From Cystobacter ferrugineus (GTDB lineage: Bacteria > Myxococcota > Myxococcia > Myxococcales > Myxococcaceae), in NCBI RefSeq assembly GCF_001887355.1, contig NZ_MPIN01000008.1, forward strand, positions 175,935 to 239,934: 64,000 nt of DNA. The letters run 5' to 3'. Of this stretch, positions 5,052 to 19,262 are shown piece after piece (within the stretch, counting starts at the first letter, position 1; the number at the start of each line of letters is the position of its first letter). Position numbers and translations under genes: made by a program. The notes under the pieces are model-generated. The model was given only the letters and a program-made list of their open reading frames with translations. It did not search any database and had not been told where the DNA came from.

Positions 5052-7004
5052 ATGGGTAGCCAGGACTCGACGCGTACCGCGACCACCGCCCCTGGAACCA
5101 GGGCCCTTGTACCGGAGAGCACCCCTCCCCCCGAGCCATGGGCGGGGGCGGCGGAGGAAGCAGCCTCCCCCCTCCGGGGCTATCCCCGTCCTCAATTGAG
5201 GCGCGCGGCGTGGTGCCCCCTCAATGGAACCTGGGACTTCGCGACCGATCCGCTCGGGCGCTGGACCATGCCCTCGGAGGTGGGCTGGAACGCCCGCATC
5301 CGCGTGCCCTTCGCGCCGGAAACGGAGCGCAGTGGCGTGGGCGGCACCGGCTTCTACCGGGCCTGTTGGTACCGCCGCTCCTTCGAGCCCCCCACGCTCG
5401 GCGCCCAGGAGCGGCTGGTGTTGCACTTCGGCGCGGTGGACCACGCGGCCTCCGTCTGGGTCAACGGCTCTCGCTGCGCGCACCACGAGGGCGGCTACAC
5501 CCCCTTCAAGGTCGACATCACGGATCTGCTCCACCGCGACGGCCCCCAGGAGCTCGTCGTGCGCGCGGAGGATGATCCAGCCGACCTCGCCAAGCCCCGG
5601 GGCAAGCAGGACTGGCAGCTCGAACCCCACTCCATCTGGTACCCGCGCACCACCGGCATCTGGCAGACGGTGTGGCTCGAGCGCGTCCCCACGACCCGCA
5701 TCGAGGGCCTGCGCTGGACGCCCAACCTCGCGCGCTGGGAGCTGGGGCTCGAGGTGCACATCGAGGGCGCGCGGCCGGAGGGGCTGCGGCTGGACGTGAA
5801 GCTGAGCGTGGGGGACACCCTGCTGGCCCGGGACTCGTACACGGTGGTGCTCGGCGAGGTGTACCGCCGCATCGCCCTGTCCGACCCCGGCATCGACGAC
5901 TTCCGCAACGAGCTGCTGTGGAGCCCCTCCTCGCCCACGCTCATCGACGCGCGCATCGAGCTGCGCGACGCCCACGGCCAGCTCCTGGACGCGGTGGACA
6001 GCTACACGGCCCTGCGCGCCATGTCTGTGCAGGGAGACCGGTTCGTGCTCAACGGGCGGCCCTACCCCATGCGGCTGGTGCTCGATCAGGGCTACTGGGA
6101 TGGCACCGGCATCACCGCGCCGGACGACGCGGCGCTGCGGCGCGACGTAGAGCTGGCCCGGGCCATGGGCTTCAACGGCGTGCGCAAGCACCAGAAGATC
6201 GAGGATCCGCGCTACCTCTACTGGGCGGACCGGCTGGGGCTCATCGTCTGGGAGGAGATGCCCAGCGCCTACCGCTTCACCCGCCAGTCCGTCGAGCGCG
6301 TCACGCGCGAATGGCTCGAGGTGCTCGCGCGCGACTACAGCCACCCGTGCATCGTGGCGTGGGTGCCCCTCAACGAGTCCTGGGGCGTACCCAACCTGCC
6401 GGACAACGTCGCCGAGCGGCACTACGTCCAGGCGCTCTTCCATCTCACCCACACCCTCGACTCCACCCGCCCGGTCATCGGCAACGACGGCTGGGAGAGC
6501 GTGTCCACCGACATCATCGGCATCCACGACTATGACGCCGACCCGGAGCAGATCTCCCAGCGCTACCACTCGCACGAGGTGCGTCCGCACCTGTTCCGGC
6601 GCGAGCGTCCCGGCGGGCGGGTGATCGTCCTCGACGAGCATCCGCACGCGGACCACCCGCTCGTGCTCTCCGAGTTCGGCGGCATCTCGATGGCGCGGGG
6701 CGACCAGCGCGAGTGGGGCTACACCCAGTGCCGGGGACCCGAGGAGCTCGCGCAGCGCTACACCGCGCTGCTCGACGTGGTGCGCTCGCTCAACCTCTTC
6801 GCGGGCTTCTGCTACACGCAATTCGCCGACACGTACCAGGAAGCCAACGGGCTGCTCTACTCGGACCGCACGCCCAAGTTCCCCCTGGAGCAGATCGCCG
6901 CCGCCACGCGGGGCCCGCGCTTCTCCGGCGACATCCCCATGCCCCCCGCCCCGTCCGGGCGCCCCCGCCCCACCACCGAGTCGGGCGAGCCCGCAGGAGT
7001 CTGA
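5052..7004 (+). CDS. Glycoside hydrolase family 2 enzyme
   Basis: A 650 aa protein with GH2 architecture. An N-terminal sugar-binding jelly roll is seen in LNGTWDFATDP, VWVNGSRCAHHEGGYTPFK and GIWQTVWLE, then an Ig-like domain, then a TIM barrel. The acid/base is in VPLNESWG (E442) and the likely nucleophile in LSEFGG (E541). Known GH2 activities include beta-galactosidase, beta-glucuronidase, beta-mannosidase and some galactofuranosidases. No signal peptide is visible, so it is probably cytoplasmic. It lies 20 bases before galK and heads a cluster for galactose and galactofuranose, so a galactoside or galactofuranoside substrate is plausible. The start at 5052 is chosen over upstream in-frame codons because residues before it are low-complexity and unlike the family. 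Confidence 0.9.
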   Translation: MGSQDSTRTATTAPGTRALVPESTPPPEPWAGAAEEAASPLRGYPRPQLRRAAWCPLNGTWDFATDPLGRWTMPSEVGWNARIRVPFAPETERSGVGGTGFYRACWYRRSFEPPTLGAQERLVLHFGAVDHAASVWVNGSRCAHHEGGYTPFKVDITDLLHRDGPQELVVRAEDDPADLAKPRGKQDWQLEPHSIWYPRTTGIWQTVWLERVPTTRIEGLRWTPNLARWELGLEVHIEGARPEGLRLDVKLSVGDTLLARDSYTVVLGEVYRRIALSDPGIDDFRNELLWSPSSPTLIDARIELRDAHGQLLDAVDSYTALRAMSVQGDRFVLNGRPYPMRLVLDQGYWDGTGITAPDDAALRRDVELARAMGFNGVRKHQKIEDPRYLYWADRLGLIVWEEMPSAYRFTRQSVERVTREWLEVLARDYSHPCIVAWVPLNESWGVPNLPDNVAERHYVQALFHLTHTLDSTRPVIGNDGWESVSTDIIGIHDYDADPEQISQRYHSHEVRPHLFRRERPGGRVIVLDEHPHADHPLVLSEFGGISMARGDQREWGYTQCRGPEELAQRYTALLDVVRSLNLFAGFCYTQFADTYQEANGLLYSDRTPKFPLEQIAAATRGPRFSGDIPMPPAPSGRPRPTTESGEPAGV

Positions 7005-7024: not shown

Positions 7025-8155
<1,131 letters not shown>

Positions 8156-8278: not shown

Positions 8279-9478
8279 ATGACGTTCAAATGGAACACCG
8301 ATGGGATGGACCGCGGGGTCAGCAGCCAGGAGCTGCCGGACCTGGTGTGCCTGTCGCATCTGCGCTGGAACTTCGTCTTCCAGCGGCCGCAGCATCTGCT
8401 CAGCCGCTTCGCGCGTGAGCGCCGGGTGTTCTTCTTCGAGGAGCCCCTCTACGGCAGCCAGGAGCCCCAGCTCCACGTCACCCACTCGCCCGAGGGCGTC
8501 TGGGTGGCCGTGCCGCACCTGCCCGAGGGACTCGACGAGCAACGGTTGATGGCCATGCAGCAGTTGCTGCTGGACGAGCTGCTCACACGCCACGCCGTGA
8601 AGCATTACGTGAGCTGGTACTACACGCCGATGGCGATGGGGTTCTCGCGCCACCTCGAGCCGCTGACCGTGGTCTACGACTGCATGGACGAGCTGTCCGC
8701 CTTCCGGGGCGCCCCCCCCGCGCTGCTGCACCGCGAGGCCGAGCTGCTCATGCGCGCGGACGTGGTCTTCACCGGCGGCCAGAGCCTCTACGAGGCCAAG
8801 CGGGACCGGCACCCGAACGTGCACGCCTTCCCGAGCAGCGTGGACGTGCCGCACTTCGCCACCGCGCGCGGAAACGTCCAGGAGCCGGCGGACCAGGCGT
8901 CCATTCCCCATCCGCGGCTCGGCTTCTTCGGCGTGGTGGACGAGCGCATGGACCTGGAGTTGCTCGAGGCCGTGGCCGACGCCCGCCCCGACTGGCAGCT
9001 CGTCATCATCGGCCCGGTGGTGAAGATCGATCCGGCCAGCCTGCCGCGCCGGCCCAACCTGCACTTCCTCGGCGGCAAGCACTACAAGGAGCTACCCACG
9101 TATCTGGCCGGCTGGGACGTGGCGCTGCTGCCCTTCGCGCGCAACGAGTCCACGCGCTTCATCTCGCCCACCAAGACACCCGAATACCTCGCGGCGGGCA
9201 AACCGGTGGTGTCCACGTCCATCCGCGACGTGGTGCGCCCCTACGGAGAGCTGGGCCTGGTGCGCATCGCGGACACCCCCGAGGACTTCGTGCGTGCCTG
9301 CGAGGCGGCCCTGGCCGAGGAGCACGCCGCGTGGCTGCCCCGGGTGGACACACACCTGGCGACGATGTCCTGGGACAACACCTGGTCCCGGATGAAGGCC
9401 CTGCTCGACGGAGCCACGCAGCAGCGGCACGAGGAGGCCACGCTCCGAGTGGAAGCGTTGAGAGAACAGACAACCTGA
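8279..9478 (+). CDS. Glycosyltransferase, GT-B type (TuaH-like)
   Basis: A 399 aa protein resembling family 1/4 glycosyltransferases of the TuaH-like group. The N-terminus has the conserved RWNFVFQRPQHLLSR and FFFEEP; the C-terminal half has the nucleotide-sugar-binding region around ISPTKTPEYLAAGKPVVST. No membrane segment is visible, so it probably works at the inner face of the cytoplasmic membrane. The start at 8279 follows an excellent ribosome site (ggagggg); the earlier in-frame GTG at 8213 is unlikely. It ends 21 bases before glf, suggesting it may use UDP-galactofuranose or a related sugar donor; donor and acceptor are inferred only from context. Confidence 0.88.
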   Translation: MTFKWNTDGMDRGVSSQELPDLVCLSHLRWNFVFQRPQHLLSRFARERRVFFFEEPLYGSQEPQLHVTHSPEGVWVAVPHLPEGLDEQRLMAMQQLLLDELLTRHAVKHYVSWYYTPMAMGFSRHLEPLTVVYDCMDELSAFRGAPPALLHREAELLMRADVVFTGGQSLYEAKRDRHPNVHAFPSSVDVPHFATARGNVQEPADQASIPHPRLGFFGVVDERMDLELLEAVADARPDWQLVIIGPVVKIDPASLPRRPNLHFLGGKHYKELPTYLAGWDVALLPFARNESTRFISPTKTPEYLAAGKPVVSTSIRDVVRPYGELGLVRIADTPEDFVRACEAALAEEHAAWLPRVDTHLATMSWDNTWSRMKALLDGATQQRHEEATLRVEALREQTT

Positions 9479-9499: not shown

Positions 9500-10633
9500 A
9501 TGTTCGACTACATGGTGGTGGGGGCGGGGTTCGCGGGAAGCGTGATGGCCGAGCGGCTCGCGAGTGCCCATGGCAAGAAGGTCCTCATCGTGGAGAAGCG
9601 GCCGCACATCGGCGGCAACGCGTACGATCACTACAACGATGACGGGGTGCTCGTGCACAAGTATGGCCCCCACATCTTCCACACCAACTCGCAGGACGTC
9701 TTCGACTATCTCAGCCGCTTCACCGCATGGCGGCCCTACCAGCACCGGGTGCTGGCGAGCGTGGATGGGCAGCTCATGCCCATCCCCATCAACCTCACCA
9801 CCATCAACCAGTACTTCGGGCTCAACCTCACGGCCTTCCAGGTGGAGGAGTTCCTCAAGACGCTCGCGGAGAAGCGCGAGACGATCCGCACCTCCGAGGA
9901 CGTCATCATCAGCAAGGTGGGCAAGGAGCTGTACGAGAAGTTCTTCCGCAACTACACGCGCAAGCAGTGGGGCCTCGACCCGAGCGAGCTGGACTCCACG
10001 GTCATCGCCCGCATCCCGGTGCGCTCCAACCGCGATGACCGCTACTTCAGCGACAAGTACCAGGTCATGCCGCTGCACGGGTACACGCGGATGTTCGAGC
10101 GGATGCTCGATCACCCCAACATCAAGGTGATGCTCAACACCGACTACCACGAGGTGAAGGACATCATCCCCTACCGGGAGATGATCTTCACCGGCCCGGT
10201 GGACGAGTACTTCGACTTCTGCTTCGGCAAGCTGCCCTACCGCTCGCTCGACTTCCGCCACGAGACGCACAGCACGGCGCGCTTCCAGGAAGCCCCGGTG
10301 GTGAACTTCCCCAACGAGTACCCCTACACGCGCTGCACCGAGTTCAAGTACCTCACCGGCCAGGAGCACCCGAAGACGAGCATCGTCTACGAGTACCCCA
10401 CCGCCGAGGGAGATCCGTACTACCCGGTGCCCCGTCCGGAGAACGCCGAGCTGTACCGCAAGTACGAGCAGCTCGCCAAGGACACGCCCGGGGTGTTCTT
10501 CGTGGGCCGGCTGGCCACGTACAAGTACTACAACATGGACCAGGTGGTGGCCCAGGCGCTCACCCTGTGCACGAAGATCATGGGCATGCGCCGCCGGGAG
10601 CTGCTCGACATGCAGGTGGAGGGGCACGCGTGA
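9500..10633 (+). CDS. glf: UDP-galactopyranose mutase
   Basis: A 377 aa flavoenzyme that interconverts UDP-galactopyranose and UDP-galactofuranose. It shows the N-terminal FAD-binding motif VVGAGFAGSVMAERLA, the IGGNAYDHYND and KYGPHIFHTN segments typical of Glf, FFRNYTRKQWGLDP in the middle, and the C-terminal GRLATYKYYNMDQV. Length matches bacterial Glf (about 370-390 aa). The stop overlaps the GTG start of the next gene (GTGA). Its presence indicates the organism makes galactofuranose-containing glycans. Confidence 0.97.
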   Translation: MFDYMVVGAGFAGSVMAERLASAHGKKVLIVEKRPHIGGNAYDHYNDDGVLVHKYGPHIFHTNSQDVFDYLSRFTAWRPYQHRVLASVDGQLMPIPINLTTINQYFGLNLTAFQVEEFLKTLAEKRETIRTSEDVIISKVGKELYEKFFRNYTRKQWGLDPSELDSTVIARIPVRSNRDDRYFSDKYQVMPLHGYTRMFERMLDHPNIKVMLNTDYHEVKDIIPYREMIFTGPVDEYFDFCFGKLPYRSLDFRHETHSTARFQEAPVVNFPNEYPYTRCTEFKYLTGQEHPKTSIVYEYPTAEGDPYYPVPRPENAELYRKYEQLAKDTPGVFFVGRLATYKYYNMDQVVAQALTLCTKIMGMRRRELLDMQVEGHA

Positions 10634-12981
10634 GCGCGACCTCCGCAAGACCCGCGGGCCTCCCCGAGATCTGGGGAGGCATCGAGGGCACGGTCAACCG
10701 CGTGGGGGACCGGTACTTCGATCAGATGCGCAGAAGCGGCCACTGGGAGCGCATCGAGGATCTGGACCTCATCGCCGCGTTGGGCATCCAGGCGCTGCGC
10801 TACCCGGTGCTGTGGGAGCACATCGCGCCGAACGGCCCCCACCGGGCGGACTGGACGTGGCCGGACGCGCGGCTCGCGCGCCTGAGGCAGTTGGGGGTGC
10901 GGCCCATCGTGGGGCTGGTGCACCATGGCAGCGGACCGAGGCACACCAGCCTGGTGGACCCGGCCTTCCCCCTCGAGCTCGCGCGGTACGCACGGGCCGT
11001 GGCCGAGCGCTACCCGTGGGTGGAGGACTACACCCCGGTGAACGAGCCGCTGACCACCGGGCGCTTCAGCGGGCTGTACGGCCACTGGTATCCACACGGC
11101 AAGGACTACCCCACCTTCGCGCGCACGATGATGGTGCAGTGCCGCGCCATCGTGGAGGCCATGCGCGCCATCCGCGAGGTGAATCCCCGGGCCCGCCTCA
11201 TCCAGACGGAGGACATGGGGCGCACCTACAGCACGCCGCACCTCGCCTACCAGGCGGAGTTCGAGAACCACCAGCGCTGGCTGAGCCTGGACCTGCTCTG
11301 CGGGCGCGTCGATCGCCAGCACCCCCTGTGGTCCCACCTGCTGAGCTGGGGCTGCTCCGAGGCGGAGCTCGGGTGGTTCCTCGACAACCCCATGCCCCCG
11401 GACGTGGTGGGCATGAACTACTACATCACCAGCGACCGGCTGCTCGACGAGCGGATGGAGCACTACCCGAAGTGGTCCCACGGCGGGAACGACCGCGACA
11501 CCTATGCGGACGTGCACGTGGCCGGGGTGTGGAAGGATGCCATCTCCGGCCACCGGGACGTGCTCGCCTGGGCGTGGGAGCGCTACAAGCTGCCCGTGGC
11601 CTTCACCGAGGTGCACCTGGGCTGCACCCGAGAGGATCAGCTCCGCTGGCTCGGGGAGGCGTGGGACGCCGTGTGCTCGCTGCGCGCGGAGGGCGTGGAC
11701 GTGCGCGCCCTCACCGTGTGGAGCCTCCTGGGCGCCTATGACTGGAACACCCTGGTGACGGCCGACCGCGGCTTCTACGAGCCGGGCGTCTTCGACATGC
11801 GCTCGTCCCGCCCGCGCCCCACGGCGCTGGCCTGGATGACGCACGCGCTCGCCAGACGCGGGCACTACGAGCACCCGGTGCTCGCCTCGCCCGGCTGGTG
11901 GCGGCGCGACGAGCGGCCCGAGCCCCACTTCGCCGCGAACCTCCACGGGGACAGCCCGGCGCCCTACGCCACGTACGTGCCCCCCCGGCGTGCGGGTGCC
12001 GAGCAGCCCCGGCCCGTGCTCATCTCGGGGGCGACGGGAACGCTGGGGCGGGCCTTCGCCCGGCTGTGCACGAGCCGGGGCATCGCCTTCCGTCTGCTCT
12101 CGCGCCAGGAGATGGACATCGCCTCACCGCAATCGGTGGAGCGCGCGCTCGAGCACTATCGGCCCTGGGTTGTCATCAACGCCGCGGGCTACGTGCGCGT
12201 GGATGACGCCGAGGTGGACACCGAGCGGTGCTTCCGGGAGAACGCGCTCGGCCCGGAGATCCTCGCCGCCGCCTGCCGTGCGCGCGACGTGCGGCTGGTC
12301 ACCTTCTCCTCGGACCTCGTCTTCGGCGGAGAGCGGCGCTCGGCCTACCTGGAGAGCAACAAGGTCCAACCGCTCAACCAGTACGGACGCAGCAAGGCGG
12401 AAGCCGAGCGCCGGGTGCTGGAGCGGATGCCCGACGCGCTGGTGGTGCGCACGGGGGCCTTCTTCGGCCCCTGGGACACCTACAACTTCGTCACCCTCGC
12501 GCTCGGGACGCTCGCGCGTGGAGAGCGGTTCGCGGCGGCGGATGACGTGGTCGTCTCGCCCACGTACGTGCCGGACCTCGTACACACCTGCCTGGATCTG
12601 CTGCTCGACGAGGCCAGCGGCGTCTGGCACCTCACGAACGCGGGCGAGGTGACGTGGGCGGAGTTCGCCGCCCAGGCGGCCCGCGTGGCCGGGCTGAACC
12701 CGAGCCGGGTGGAGGCGCGTCCCCTGGAATCCTTCGGGTGGGTGGCGCCCCGGCCGCGCTACAGTGCCCTGGCGAGCGAGCGTGCCCAGCTCATGCCCCC
12801 CCTCACCCAGGCCCTGGAGCGCTACCTCGTTGACGACGAAATCAAGCCCGCGCGAAGACCGGCCGGAGGGGGCCGGGCGGCCTGCGCGGTCTGCGGAGGG
12901 ACGAACGATGAAAGTCATGGTGACGGGCGGTGCCGGCTACATCGGGAGCGTGGTGACGGAGGAGTTGCTACGGGGGGGTGA
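10630..12981 (+). CDS. Fusion: GH1-like glycosidase domain plus RmlD-like reductase
   Basis: A 783 aa two-domain protein. Residues about 1-440 resemble family 1 glycoside hydrolases: YTPVNEPLTTGRF contains the acid/base E139 and FTEVHLG the nucleophile E327. Residues about 460-755 are an extended short-chain dehydrogenase like dTDP-4-dehydrorhamnose reductase: ISGATGTLGRAF nucleotide-binding loop, SSDLVFGG, and the YGRSK catalytic pair Y585/K589. The GTG start overlaps the glf stop by 4 bases. The last 74 bases overlap galE in another frame, and the tail encoded there is low-complexity. Joining a glycosidase-like fold to a sugar-nucleotide reductase is unusual; it could act on a lipid- or nucleotide-linked sugar in galactofuranose glycan assembly. 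Activity is unproven. Confidence 0.85.
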   Translation: MSATSARPAGLPEIWGGIEGTVNRVGDRYFDQMRRSGHWERIEDLDLIAALGIQALRYPVLWEHIAPNGPHRADWTWPDARLARLRQLGVRPIVGLVHHGSGPRHTSLVDPAFPLELARYARAVAERYPWVEDYTPVNEPLTTGRFSGLYGHWYPHGKDYPTFARTMMVQCRAIVEAMRAIREVNPRARLIQTEDMGRTYSTPHLAYQAEFENHQRWLSLDLLCGRVDRQHPLWSHLLSWGCSEAELGWFLDNPMPPDVVGMNYYITSDRLLDERMEHYPKWSHGGNDRDTYADVHVAGVWKDAISGHRDVLAWAWERYKLPVAFTEVHLGCTREDQLRWLGEAWDAVCSLRAEGVDVRALTVWSLLGAYDWNTLVTADRGFYEPGVFDMRSSRPRPTALAWMTHALARRGHYEHPVLASPGWWRRDERPEPHFAANLHGDSPAPYATYVPPRRAGAEQPRPVLISGATGTLGRAFARLCTSRGIAFRLLSRQEMDIASPQSVERALEHYRPWVVINAAGYVRVDDAEVDTERCFRENALGPEILAAACRARDVRLVTFSSDLVFGGERRSAYLESNKVQPLNQYGRSKAEAERRVLERMPDALVVRTGAFFGPWDTYNFVTLALGTLARGERFAAADDVVVSPTYVPDLVHTCLDLLLDEASGVWHLTNAGEVTWAEFAAQAARVAGLNPSRVEARPLESFGWVAPRPRYSALASERAQLMPPLTQALERYLVDDEIKPARRPAGGGRAACAVCGGTNDESHGDGRCRLHRERGDGGVATGG

Positions 12982-13879
12982 CGAGGTCGTCGTCTACGAC
13001 AGCCTCTACAAGGGCCACCGCGAGGCGGTGGTGGAGGGCGCCAGCTTCGTGAAGGGCGACCTGCTCGACACCGAGCTGCTGCGCGGCACGCTCATCCAGC
13101 ACAAGGTGGAGGCGGTGGTCCACATGGCGGCCGACTCGCTGGTGGGCGAGTCGGTGAAGGCCCCGGCGAAGTACTACCGCAACAACGTCCTCGGGGGGCT
13201 CAGCCTGCTGGACGCCATGCGCGAGGCGGAGGTGAAGTACCTCGTCTTCTCCTCCACCGCCGCGGTCTACGGCGAGCCGGCCAAGCAGCCCATCGAGGAG
13301 AGCGATCCCACCCAGCCCACCAACCCCTACGGCGAGACGAAGCTCGCCTTCGAGCGCGCCCTGCGCTGGTACGACGGGGCCTATGGGCTGCGCTTCGTGA
13401 GCCTGCGCTACTTCAACGCGGCCGGCGCCACGGAGCGCTGTGGCGAGCGCCACTCACCCGAGACACACCTCATTCCGCTCGTGCTCCAGGCGGCGGTGGG
13501 GCAGTTGCCCGAGGTCACCGTCTTCGGTGACGACTACCCCACTCCGGATGGCACCTGCGTGCGCGACTACATCCACGTGGTGGACCTGGCACAGGCACAC
13601 GTGCGCGCCCTGCACGCGCTGGCGGAGGGGCACGAGAGCGCCATCTACAACCTGGGCTGCGGCGGAGAGGGCTACAGCGTGAAGCAGGTCATCGACTGCG
13701 CCCGCCGCGTCACCGGACGAGACATTCCCGTGCGCAAGGGGCCACGGCGGCCCGGGGATCCCGCGGTGCTCATCGCCAGCTCGGCGCGCATCATGCGCGA
13801 GCTCGGCTGGAGTCCCACGCACCAGAAGCTCGACGCCATCGTGGAGTCCGCCTGGCGCTTCATGCAGAACAAACGCTGA
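12908..13879 (+). CDS. galE: UDP-glucose 4-epimerase
   Basis: A 323 aa extended short-chain dehydrogenase that interconverts UDP-glucose and UDP-galactose using bound NAD. It has TGGAGYIGS at the N-terminus, FSSTAAVYG, the catalytic YGETK (Y141/K145), the GalE signature RYFNAAGA, and the substrate-binding region DGTCVRDYIHVVDLA. The product feeds Glf upstream. Its start lies inside the preceding gene (74-bp overlap), so translation is probably coupled. The TGA stop is followed immediately, in the same frame, by a remnant of an unrelated gene. Confidence 0.96.
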   Translation: MKVMVTGGAGYIGSVVTEELLRGGDEVVVYDSLYKGHREAVVEGASFVKGDLLDTELLRGTLIQHKVEAVVHMAADSLVGESVKAPAKYYRNNVLGGLSLLDAMREAEVKYLVFSSTAAVYGEPAKQPIEESDPTQPTNPYGETKLAFERALRWYDGAYGLRFVSLRYFNAAGATERCGERHSPETHLIPLVLQAAVGQLPEVTVFGDDYPTPDGTCVRDYIHVVDLAQAHVRALHALAEGHESAIYNLGCGGEGYSVKQVIDCARRVTGRDIPVRKGPRRPGDPAVLIASSARIMRELGWSPTHQKLDAIVESAWRFMQNKR

Positions 13880-16905: not shown

Positions 16906-17688
16906 ATGCCAAGCTGGATGCGAACCATCGCCCTGTGGGTGCTGCTCATCGTTCTGTACGTCGCCTTCTACGCCTTCTTCAGACAACCCGGAGAGCCGTT
17001 CCCGGACCTGTCGGGCTGGATCCCCGTGGCCCTGCTGGTGGGAGGTGCCGTCGTGGTCGGCGTCTTCCTCGGCAATCGGGTCCAGAAGGGATGGCGCTTG
17101 AACGCGGAGGGCAGTGATCTCCTGTCCCGAGGGCGCATCGCCGCCGCCCTCGAGAAGTTCGAGCTCGCGCGGCCCCTGCTCAAGAACCAGGGACAGGGCG
17201 TCATCCCCTTCAACGTCGGCGTGTGCCATCTCGGGCTGTGGCATCTGGACGCGGCCGAGCGGGACTTCACCACCGCCCAGGACATCAAGGAGCTCCCCGC
17301 CTCCATCCGCAAGCACATCCCCGTGCGGCTCGCGCTGATCGCCGCGCTCCAGGGCGCCCTGGGTGTCGCGGAGAAGCGGCTCGCGGAGGCCAGGGCCCTG
17401 GATGCCGAGGATCCCCTCGTCGTCGTCACCCAGGCCGTCATCACCTGCCGGCGCGAGGACTGGGCCCAGACCCGCGCGCTGCTCGAAGGGCCCGCGACCC
17501 ACGTGCTCGGCGGCCCCCTGCGTGGGCTGCGCGACGCCCTCCTCTCCTGGAGCGTGGAGAAGCTCTCCGGCGAGCGCCGCTACGTGGACCCCATCACCGT
17601 GTTCGGCGAGGCCTCGACCGACAAACTGCGCGAGTCCTGGCCCGCCCTCGTGAACTTCCTCCTGGAGCGCGCCCGCCAGGCGGCCTGA
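16906..17688 (+). CDS. Membrane-anchored tetratricopeptide-like protein
   Basis: A 260 aa protein with two N-terminal membrane helices ([19 protein letters not shown] and [19 protein letters not shown]) and a cytoplasmic or periplasmic helical domain with TPR-like features ([49 protein letters not shown]). The family is not recognised; such proteins usually mediate protein-protein contacts. In-frame Met codons at 16888 and 16918 are alternatives for the start; none has a strong ribosome site. Confidence 0.72.
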
Positions 17689-17725
17689 TGGCGAACCGTG
17701 TCTCTCCTGGTTATTTGATCACCAA

Positions 17726-17743
17726 GGAGGCATACGAGCCTCC
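17726..17743 (+). other. Small hairpin between the TPR protein and sugar dehydrogenase genes
   Basis: The arms ggaggc and gcctcc form a 6-bp stem with a 6-base loop, 38 bases after the upstream stop and followed by a short C-run. It may be a weak terminator or leader structure. Confidence 0.25.
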
Positions 17744-17813
17744 CCCCGCATGGATGCTGAACACGCATCGTTCACCGCCCCTGTGCAGACCCATCACCGT
17801 CGTGGAGAGTCAC

Positions 17814-19262
17814 ATGCGAACCTTGTCGAAGACCTTCATCATCGCCGCCCTCCTGTCGGGCTGCGGCAACCCGCCCCCCGACAACCCAGGCGGCACGCCG
17901 CAAACCACTGAAGACGCGGGCGTCACGCCGCAGAACCCCCGTGACGCGGGCAGCACTCCGCAGGAGCCCACCGATGCGGGCGTCCCGCCGGAGGAGCCCA
18001 CCGACGCGGGCGTCCCGCCGGAGGAGCCCACCGACGCGGGCGTCCCGCCGGAGGAGCCCACCGACGCGGGCGTCCCGCCGGAGGAGCCCACCGACGCGGG
18101 CGTCCCGCCGGAGGAACCCCTTCCCAGCGGACCCCCGGTACCGACGGGTCCCCCCAACGTGCCCGAGTTCGACCCGGCCTTCCCCGGTCAGACGCGTGCT
18201 CCGGAAGTCAAATCGAAGACGGCCGTCCAGGTCACCGAGATTGCCTCGGGCTTCAGGAATCCCTGGGCCATCGCCTTCCTGCCCGACCAGCGCATGCTGG
18301 TGACGGAGAAGCCCGGCGCCCTCTACCTCGTCACGCCCCAGGGCACGAAGTCCCCCGCTGTCTCGGGTCTGCCGACCGTGGATGCTCGTGGGCAAGGCGG
18401 CCTGCTCGACGTGGAGGTGGGTCCCGACTACGCCCAGAGCGGCCTCATCTACTGGACCTATTATGAGCCTCGCCAGGGCGGCAATGGCCTGGCGGTGGCG
18501 CGCGCGAAGCTCGTGGACGGCGCACAGCCGCGCGTGGAGAACGTTCAGGTCATCTTCCGCATGATGCCCACGCTCGAGTCGACCCTGCACGCGGGCGGAC
18601 GGCTCGTGTTCACCCCCGACAACAAGCTGTTCGTCACGCTCGGTGAGCGCTCCATCCTCGAGGGCCGCGTCCAGGCGCAGGACGTGAAGAGCCACTTCGG
18701 CAAGGTGGTCCGCATCAACCCCGACGGCACGGTGCCCCAGGACAACCCGTACCTGAACGACCCGGAGGCCAAGCCGGAGATCTGGTCGGTGGGTCACCGC
18801 AACATCCTGTCGGCGGCGCTCGACAGCCAGAAGCGGTTGTGGACCGTGGAGATGGGGCCCAAGGGGGGTGACGAGCTCAACCGTCCCGAGGCGGGCAAGG
18901 ACTACGGCTGGCCCACCATCGGCTACGGCGAGGAGTACTCCGGCGCTCCCATCCACCAGAGCCCCCAGGCCCCGGGCATGGAGCAGCCCATGTACTACTG
19001 GGATCCAGTGATCGCCCCCTCGGGCATGACCATCTACACCGGAGACCTCTTCCCGGAGTGGAAGAACAACGTCTTCATCGGCGGCCTGGCCAGCCAGGCA
19101 CTGGTGCGGCTCATGATGAGGAATGACCTCGTGGTGGGCGAGGAGCGGTTGCTCACGGAGCGCAAGGAGCGCATCCGCGAGGTGGTGCAGGGACCCGAGG
19201 GCGCGCTCTACCTGCTCACCGACGCCACCAACGGCAAGCTGCTCAAGCTCACGCCGCGCTGA
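17814..19262 (+). CDS. PQQ-dependent sugar dehydrogenase family lipoprotein, copy 1
   Basis: A 482 aa exported lipoprotein with lipobox ALLSGC. After it come about 100 residues of Asp/Gly/Pro-rich linker, including a decapeptide [10 protein letters not shown] repeated five times. The C-terminal 345 residues match the soluble aldose sugar dehydrogenase (YliI/Asd, GSDH) beta-propeller: [55 protein letters not shown] and [12 protein letters not shown]. Members oxidise aldoses with pyrroloquinoline quinone at the cell surface or in the periplasm. A close paralogue lies inverted at 20245-21549. The start follows tggagag; the frame is open further upstream, but only this ATG gives a signal peptide. 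Confidence 0.9.
17961..18110 (+). repeat. 30-bp tandem repeat array in the lipoprotein linker
   Basis: Five contiguous 30-bp units, starting (g/c)aggagccca and ending cgtcccgccg. Units 2-5 are identical; unit 1 differs at two bases. The period is a multiple of three, so unit gain or loss changes linker length by ten residues without a frameshift. Confidence 0.95.

Follow-up and report, generated by a model that had tools for sequence, protein, structure and literature searches.

What pathway makes use of a protein that joins a glycoside hydrolase fold to a nucleotide-sugar reductase, and which of its halves does the work? This question is raised by a gene in a 64,000-nucleotide stretch of the Cystobacter ferrugineus genome (hereafter the window; assembly GCF_001887355.1, contig NZ_MPIN01000008.1, positions 175,935 to 239,934). 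An initial annotation had read the gene as a natural fusion of a family 1 glycoside hydrolase (GH1)-like domain with an RmlD-like reductase, and had tied it to the assembly of galactofuranose (Galf) glycans. We found that the product is one intact, genuine fusion, that its gene lies in an operon with glf, the gene for UDP-galactopyranose mutase (UGM), across phyla, and that its reductase half has decayed repeatedly.

An intact fusion of GH1 and RmlD domains

The reading frame is open from a GTG codon at 10630 to the stop codon at 12979–12981, with a possible upstream extension to an in-frame GTG at 10567. Pfam assigned Glyco_hydro_1 (PF00232) to residues 40–375 (1.4e-10; 40.7 bits, above the cut-off of 22.6) and RmlD_sub_bind (PF04321) to residues 463–721 (3.4e-62). 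AlphaFold2, given the window protein together with seven relatives, modelled both domains as well (mean predicted local distance difference test score (pLDDT) 78.8; predicted template modelling score 0.80). Aligned with VIA-align, residues 9–414 matched GH1 beta-glucosidases (T. maritima GH1, TmGH1; Z 30.6, 3.2 Å over 372 residues) and residues 460–743 matched the RmlD structure 1vl0 (Z 37.6, 1.8 Å over 276 residues). The model has low confidence in the interdomain linker, in the tail from residue 737 and in two loops near the active site (142–157 and 370–382); the linker and the C-terminal tail are also weakly constrained among congeners.

The same fusion is found far beyond the myxobacteria. 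Full-length relatives, about 45–60% identical, come from Cyanobacteria, Deinococcota, Proteobacteria, Bacteroidota, Armatimonadota and other Myxococcota, with examples in Betaproteobacteria and in Sorangium, and plasmid-borne copies were found in Gloeothece, Deinococcus, Azospirillum, Sphingobium, Novosphingobium, Caballeronia and Runella. Occurrence is patchy (9/195 genomes in the window's phylum, 5/398 in that of Noviherbaspirillum and 11/386 in that of FACHB-502). RefSeq lists most of these proteins as 'family 1 glycosylhydrolase', with entries of about 720–760 residues (e.g. WP_013334485.1 from Gloeothece, WP_264778046.1 from Deinococcus), often encoded beside glf, under a label that names one domain only of the full-length fusion. 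Our full-text literature searches found no paper on the GH1–RmlD fusion, on a triad of glycosyltransferase (GT), glf and GH1, or on the cassette described below; within the reach of these searches, the fusion is known to databases but has not been described as a system. Separately, a distant GH1-only family (about 33% identity) lies directly beside a classical short-chain dehydrogenase/reductase (SDR) gene in Deinococcus aetherius (L036:8977-11042) and Hymenobacter (L037:8160-10140), a second GH1–oxidoreductase pairing.

Intact copies in many phyla, with the same domain order and length, rule out an accidental fusion, a frameshift or an assembly error. Two relatives do carry frameshifted copies, which might speak for a chance joining of halves that have no joint role, but both breaks fall inside GH1 (near residue 368 in G061 and at residues 231–257 in Sphingomonas daechungensis) and not at the domain boundary, and we found no orthologues encoding the halves as separate genes with a frameshift here. 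Within the window's clade of close relatives, the ratio of nonsynonymous to synonymous substitution rates is about 0.19 for GH1 and 0.24–0.27 for RmlD, indicating purifying selection on both halves. With a conserved cassette around the gene as well, a fusion devoid of any joint role is scarcely credible.

Alignment bore out the catalytic residues named in the initial annotation, namely E139 and E327 in GH1 context, the nucleotide loop and the YGRSK pair. Both glutamates, present in essentially all relatives, are kept throughout 53 GH1-containing sequences, as are H98, N138, Y265, W364 and W372; on the strength of these residues we rejected an inactive Klotho-like GH1, Klotho being among the sequence matches. 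The GH1 half shares with GH1 beta-glucosidases (PF00232; TmGH1, 1od0/2j7h) the TIM barrel, the NEP acid/base, the TE nucleophile and the H, N-Y and W motifs, but differs in its identity of only about 18%, in reading TEVH where those enzymes have TENG, and in the attached RmlD domain. Two TmGH1 sugar-binding positions, whose numbering we take to be Q20 and E405, are also altered: the fusion family has N, A, V or S at what appears to be the Q20 position, and D, E or G at that of E405. Because of these altered positions and the TEVH motif, the sugar bound by the GH1 half is probably not plain glucose.

A probable galactofuranose cassette across phyla

The fusion belongs to a mobile cassette. We surveyed 48 loci holding a GH1 part, with close congeners set aside and a neighbourhood reach of about 9 kb. 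Related GT genes were found in 34 of them and Glf in 31, followed by family 2 glycoside hydrolase (GH2) and GalK (11 each), GalT (5) and GalE (4). GT and Glf formed a single open reading frame (ORF) of about 750–920 residues at 13/48 loci (L017, L027, L038, L064, L066-L072, L086 and L088), in cyanobacteria and Sphingobium, and Pfam confirmed this second fusion in Gloeothece. Such natural fusion of a GT to the mutase suggests that the GT uses the mutase's product. At one locus, in Noviherbaspirillum (L019:7201-9861), the cassette GT is instead fused to a PRK07208-like flavoprotein, a distant UGM relative that may be an alternative mutase.

Co-occurrence with Glf extended beyond adjacency. All 20 fusion or GH1-type genomes tested had exactly one Glf match, located elsewhere in the genome when not adjacent. 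Ignoring shared ancestry, Glf was enriched in full-length-fusion genomes of the window's phylum (6/6 versus a base rate of 14/195; Fisher p 4e-8) and in fusion genomes of Cyanobacteria (11/11 versus 106/386; Fisher p 5e-7), and distances were correlated between GH1 and GT (Mantel r 0.85), GT and Glf (0.90) and GH1 and RmlD (0.77). The proposed connection to Galf is strongly supported by the operon with glf, by the presence of glf in every fusion genome tested and by a neighbouring GH2 that resembles beta-D-galactofuranosidases.

In the window, all genes of the cassette lie on the forward strand in the order GH2, galK, GT, glf, fusion, galE (Table 1). The GTG start of the fusion gene and the glf stop share four bases (GTGA), which suggests translational coupling of the two genes; galE begins, in a different frame, within the last 74 or so bases of the fusion gene (12908–12981), as it does in congeners. 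The closest solved structure to the glf product is 3hdq (630 bits), which we take to be the D. radiodurans UGM. The GT scored far below the cut-off of NF047676 and had no match in a sequence search of solved structures; its model has a GT-B fold nearest to retaining GT4-type enzymes (MshA, sucrose-phosphate synthase, PimB', OtsA and BshA), among which sucrose-phosphate synthase, MshA, OtsA and BshA act on small molecules. For the GH2, the closest structures are 7xyr (GH2_19) and β-D-galactofuranosidase 2 of Streptomyces sp. JHA19 (9j6n/9j6m, GH2_18), with which it shares the NE and E catalytic residues, a likeness that belongs to the neighbouring gene and not to the fusion. GH2_18 and GH2_19 are the subfamilies holding the β-D-Galf and α-L-arabinofuranose activities of GH2 (PMC12243196).

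Table 1. Cassette genes, domains and predicted catalytic codons in the window
Feature	Position	Strand	Basis
GH2, furanosidase-related (GH2_18/19-like)	5052..7004	+	acid/base NES and nucleophile SEFGG kept
galK, galactokinase	7025..8155	+	ATG 7025; PF10509, PF00288, PF08544
GT-B glycosyltransferase, GT4-like, weakly TuaH-like	8279..9478	+	ATG 8279 or 8306; PF13692
glf, UDP-galactopyranose mutase	9500..10633	+	TIGR00031, 419.8 bits, above cut-off 303.75
GH1–RmlD fusion gene, 783 aa	10630..12981	+	ORF, Pfam, AlphaFold2 model, orthologues
GH1 TIM-barrel domain, residues ~9–414	10654..11871	+	PF00232, fold match, both glutamates kept
E139 codon, predicted acid/base, VNEP motif	11044..11046	+	aligns with NEP of GH1 beta-glucosidases
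E327 codon, predicted nucleophile, TEVH replacing TENG	11608..11610	+	aligns with TENG of GH1 beta-glucosidases
Linker between domains, residues 425–457	11902..12000	+	pLDDT under 50, low confidence
RmlD-type SDR domain, residues ~460–743	12007..12858	+	PF04321, fold match to 1vl0
galE, UDP-glucose 4-epimerase	12908..13879	+	ATG 12908; TIGR01179, 414.7 bits, above cut-off

Two loci show the cassette in loss. A single deletion in congener G092 extends between the GH2 N-terminus and the RmlD C-terminus, taking out most of the fusion together with GH2, galK, GT and glf and leaving a tannase gene and galE in place; in the cyanobacterium G984 (L082), a decaying cassette has nine in-frame stops in the fusion and an adjoining GT split over several frames. 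Judged from annotation tables and a reference gene set, with no systematic scan, genes for polymerisation or export (Wzx/Wzy, ABC exporters) did not stand out as regular members of the cassette. Plasmid cassettes often appear to lie near stress-type genes for catalase, ferritin-like proteins, hemerythrin and PAS kinases (L030, L034, L038, L085 and L090). The D. radiodurans UGM gene dr_A0367 is among the genes whose transcripts are reduced upon deletion of dsr11, a heat-stress small RNA (PMC7022480). Elsewhere in the window, an ORF at 17223–19262 carries a tandem 10-residue repeat ahead of a predicted sugar-dehydrogenase-like domain.

Repeated decay of the RmlD half

In the window protein, the RmlD half retains the glycine loop (G467/G470/G473) and the Y585/K589 pair of YGRSK. 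It resembles the dTDP-4-dehydrorhamnose reductase RmlD (PF04321, TIGR01214; 1vl0, 3sc6) in its fold, glycine loop and S/T-Y-K residues, but it scores below the TIGR01214 equivalog cut-off (206.2 versus 224.05 bits), as do the other fused copies except for one relative at the cut-off (224.0–224.2). The Trp of the RTSWxY motif, which in RmlD presumably stacks on the sugar substrate, is also absent: the sequence here is RTGAFFG/RTSAFFG as against RTSWLYG/RTAWLYG in 3sc6/1vl0, and the position is Ala or another residue across the family. The genome has a separate rmlB–rmlD pair elsewhere (contig C3 of G000), and none of the rhamnose genes rmlA, rmlB and rmlC lies beside the fusion, whose neighbours are those listed in Table 1. 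The separate pair, the score below cut-off and the different neighbours rule out a housekeeping rhamnose RmlD.

Across the 53 GH1-containing sequences, the RmlD half was intact in 40, had lost YxxxK with much of the domain kept in 8, and had largely disappeared in 5. Mapped onto the GH1 tree, these states require 8 changes, of which well-supported branches force at least 5 for the degenerate class alone, and the reduced copies lie nested among fusions that are intact. The RmlD site or most of the domain has been lost in Sorangium, Caballeronia, several Deinococcus, rhizobial relatives and others, with GH1 and GT–glf retained. Since 'GH1-only' relatives still carry recognisable RmlD remnants (e.g. 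ECCSTRRL…AALDLAIDG), the fusion is ancestral and the reductase decayed later, and since several lineages have inactivated or gutted the domain, the RmlD half appears dispensable. A loss of catalytic residues from most fusions, which the initial annotation had considered, was not found: the GH1 glutamates are kept, although a sizeable minority of fusions no longer have the RmlD site.

Possible roles of the fusion and its cassette

Our best explanation, which we hold to be evenly poised between right and wrong, is an ancestral GH1–RmlD fusion in a small cytosolic Galf cassette, in which GH1 would be the core glycosidase or transglycosidase acting on a Galf glycoside and RmlD an auxiliary reductase or cofactor module. 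GalE and GalK would supply UDP-galactopyranose (UDP-Galp), which Glf would contract to UDP-Galf, and the adjacent GT4-like GT, sometimes fused to Glf, would build a small Galf-containing glycoside. As the constant partner, the GH1 domain would use a retaining beta-glycosidase or transglycosidase activity to trim, remodel or recycle this glycoside, with galactose possibly returned through GH2 and GalK. The RmlD domain, dispensable and kept close by the tether, would reduce sugars with NAD(P)H in an accessory role or serve to bind the cofactor. We propose a small cytosolic glycoside as the product because the fold neighbours of the GT act on small molecules and most cassettes have a single GT.

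Several points weigh against this explanation. Neither GT nor Glf lies within about 9 kb at 13/48 loci, so adjacency is not obligatory, and the Fisher and Mantel values take no account of shared ancestry. The relative L058 has the opposite pattern, with GH1 degenerate and RmlD intact, and since the reductase site is intact in most fusions, the RmlD half is not merely decorative. Should the GT share the retaining mechanism of its structural neighbours, its product would be alpha-Galf, and a GH1 or GH2 specific for beta linkages would not cut this; the GH1 substrate may then be another bond in the same molecule. The cytosolic location is a reading of the N-terminus of the fusion protein, and the GH1 activity and the cassette product are predictions from sequence.

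The alternatives differ chiefly in what they ask of the RmlD half. According to the concerted reaction first suggested, GH1 and RmlD would process a single intermediate of Galf glycan assembly one after the other; an ancient and widely kept fusion, a reductase site intact in 40/53 sequences and purifying selection on both halves in the window's clade are consistent with this, but the proposal is weakened because the RmlD site has been lost several times independently in copies that keep GH1 and GT–glf, and by a linker that is short, disordered and poorly conserved, and we now consider it unlikely. Those dead forms, the substituted Trp position and the close fold match to MAT2B (Z about 32) would suit a non-catalytic NAD(P)-binding module of regulatory or structural type, as in MAT2B, which senses redox state or stabilises GH1. 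Most fusions keep Y585/K589 and the glycine loop, however, and YxxxK would be superfluous in a purely structural role, which makes such a module similarly improbable.

The same intact YxxxK could instead point to a C4-reductase that makes an NDP-6-deoxyhexopyranose (e.g. dTDP-D-fucose), which Glf would contract to the furanose and whose glycoside GH1 would act on. There is precedent in an NADPH-dependent C4-reductase paired with a UGM-type mutase that makes CDP-fucofuranose in HS:41 (PMC12369002), and in Fcf1 and Fcf2, which are encoded beside a glycosyltransferase and make dTDP-fucofuranose (PMC10888714); as in the cassette, a reductase-type enzyme, a mutase and a glycosyltransferase are encoded together. 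An RmlB-type 4,6-dehydratase match was present in 19/19 genomes tested (17 above the family cut-off), but RmlB is common in bacteria and its presence tests little. Unlike those systems, whose reductase is not fused to GH1, the cassette holds galK, galE and galT and not a 4,6-dehydratase gene; its Glf is closest to the D. radiodurans UGM, and GT–glf is retained in several cassettes where RmlD is dead or missing. We therefore doubt that this route operates here, though we count it as a live rival, and we favour the Galf-glycoside cassette with GH1 at its core.

Galf-glycoside hydrolase or transglycosidase activity is, to our knowledge, not known from GH1, and the cassette suggests an uncharacterised specificity in that family. 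In a bolder and rather speculative version, which we think improbable, the GH1 half would be a new kind of Galf-processing enzyme, the reductase tethered to it would chemically modify the sugar, and the two proteins GT–Glf and GH1–RmlD of this mobile cassette, spread over several phyla, would together make a small Galf compound not yet described, which might protect against stress. Two complementary fusions in one multi-phylum cassette, joining GT with Glf and GH1 with RmlD, offer a compact and testable Galf pathway outside the pathogens in which Galf is usually studied. For the structurally studied Deinococcus UGM, which among solved structures is closest to the glf product, the cassette may further provide a physiological context.

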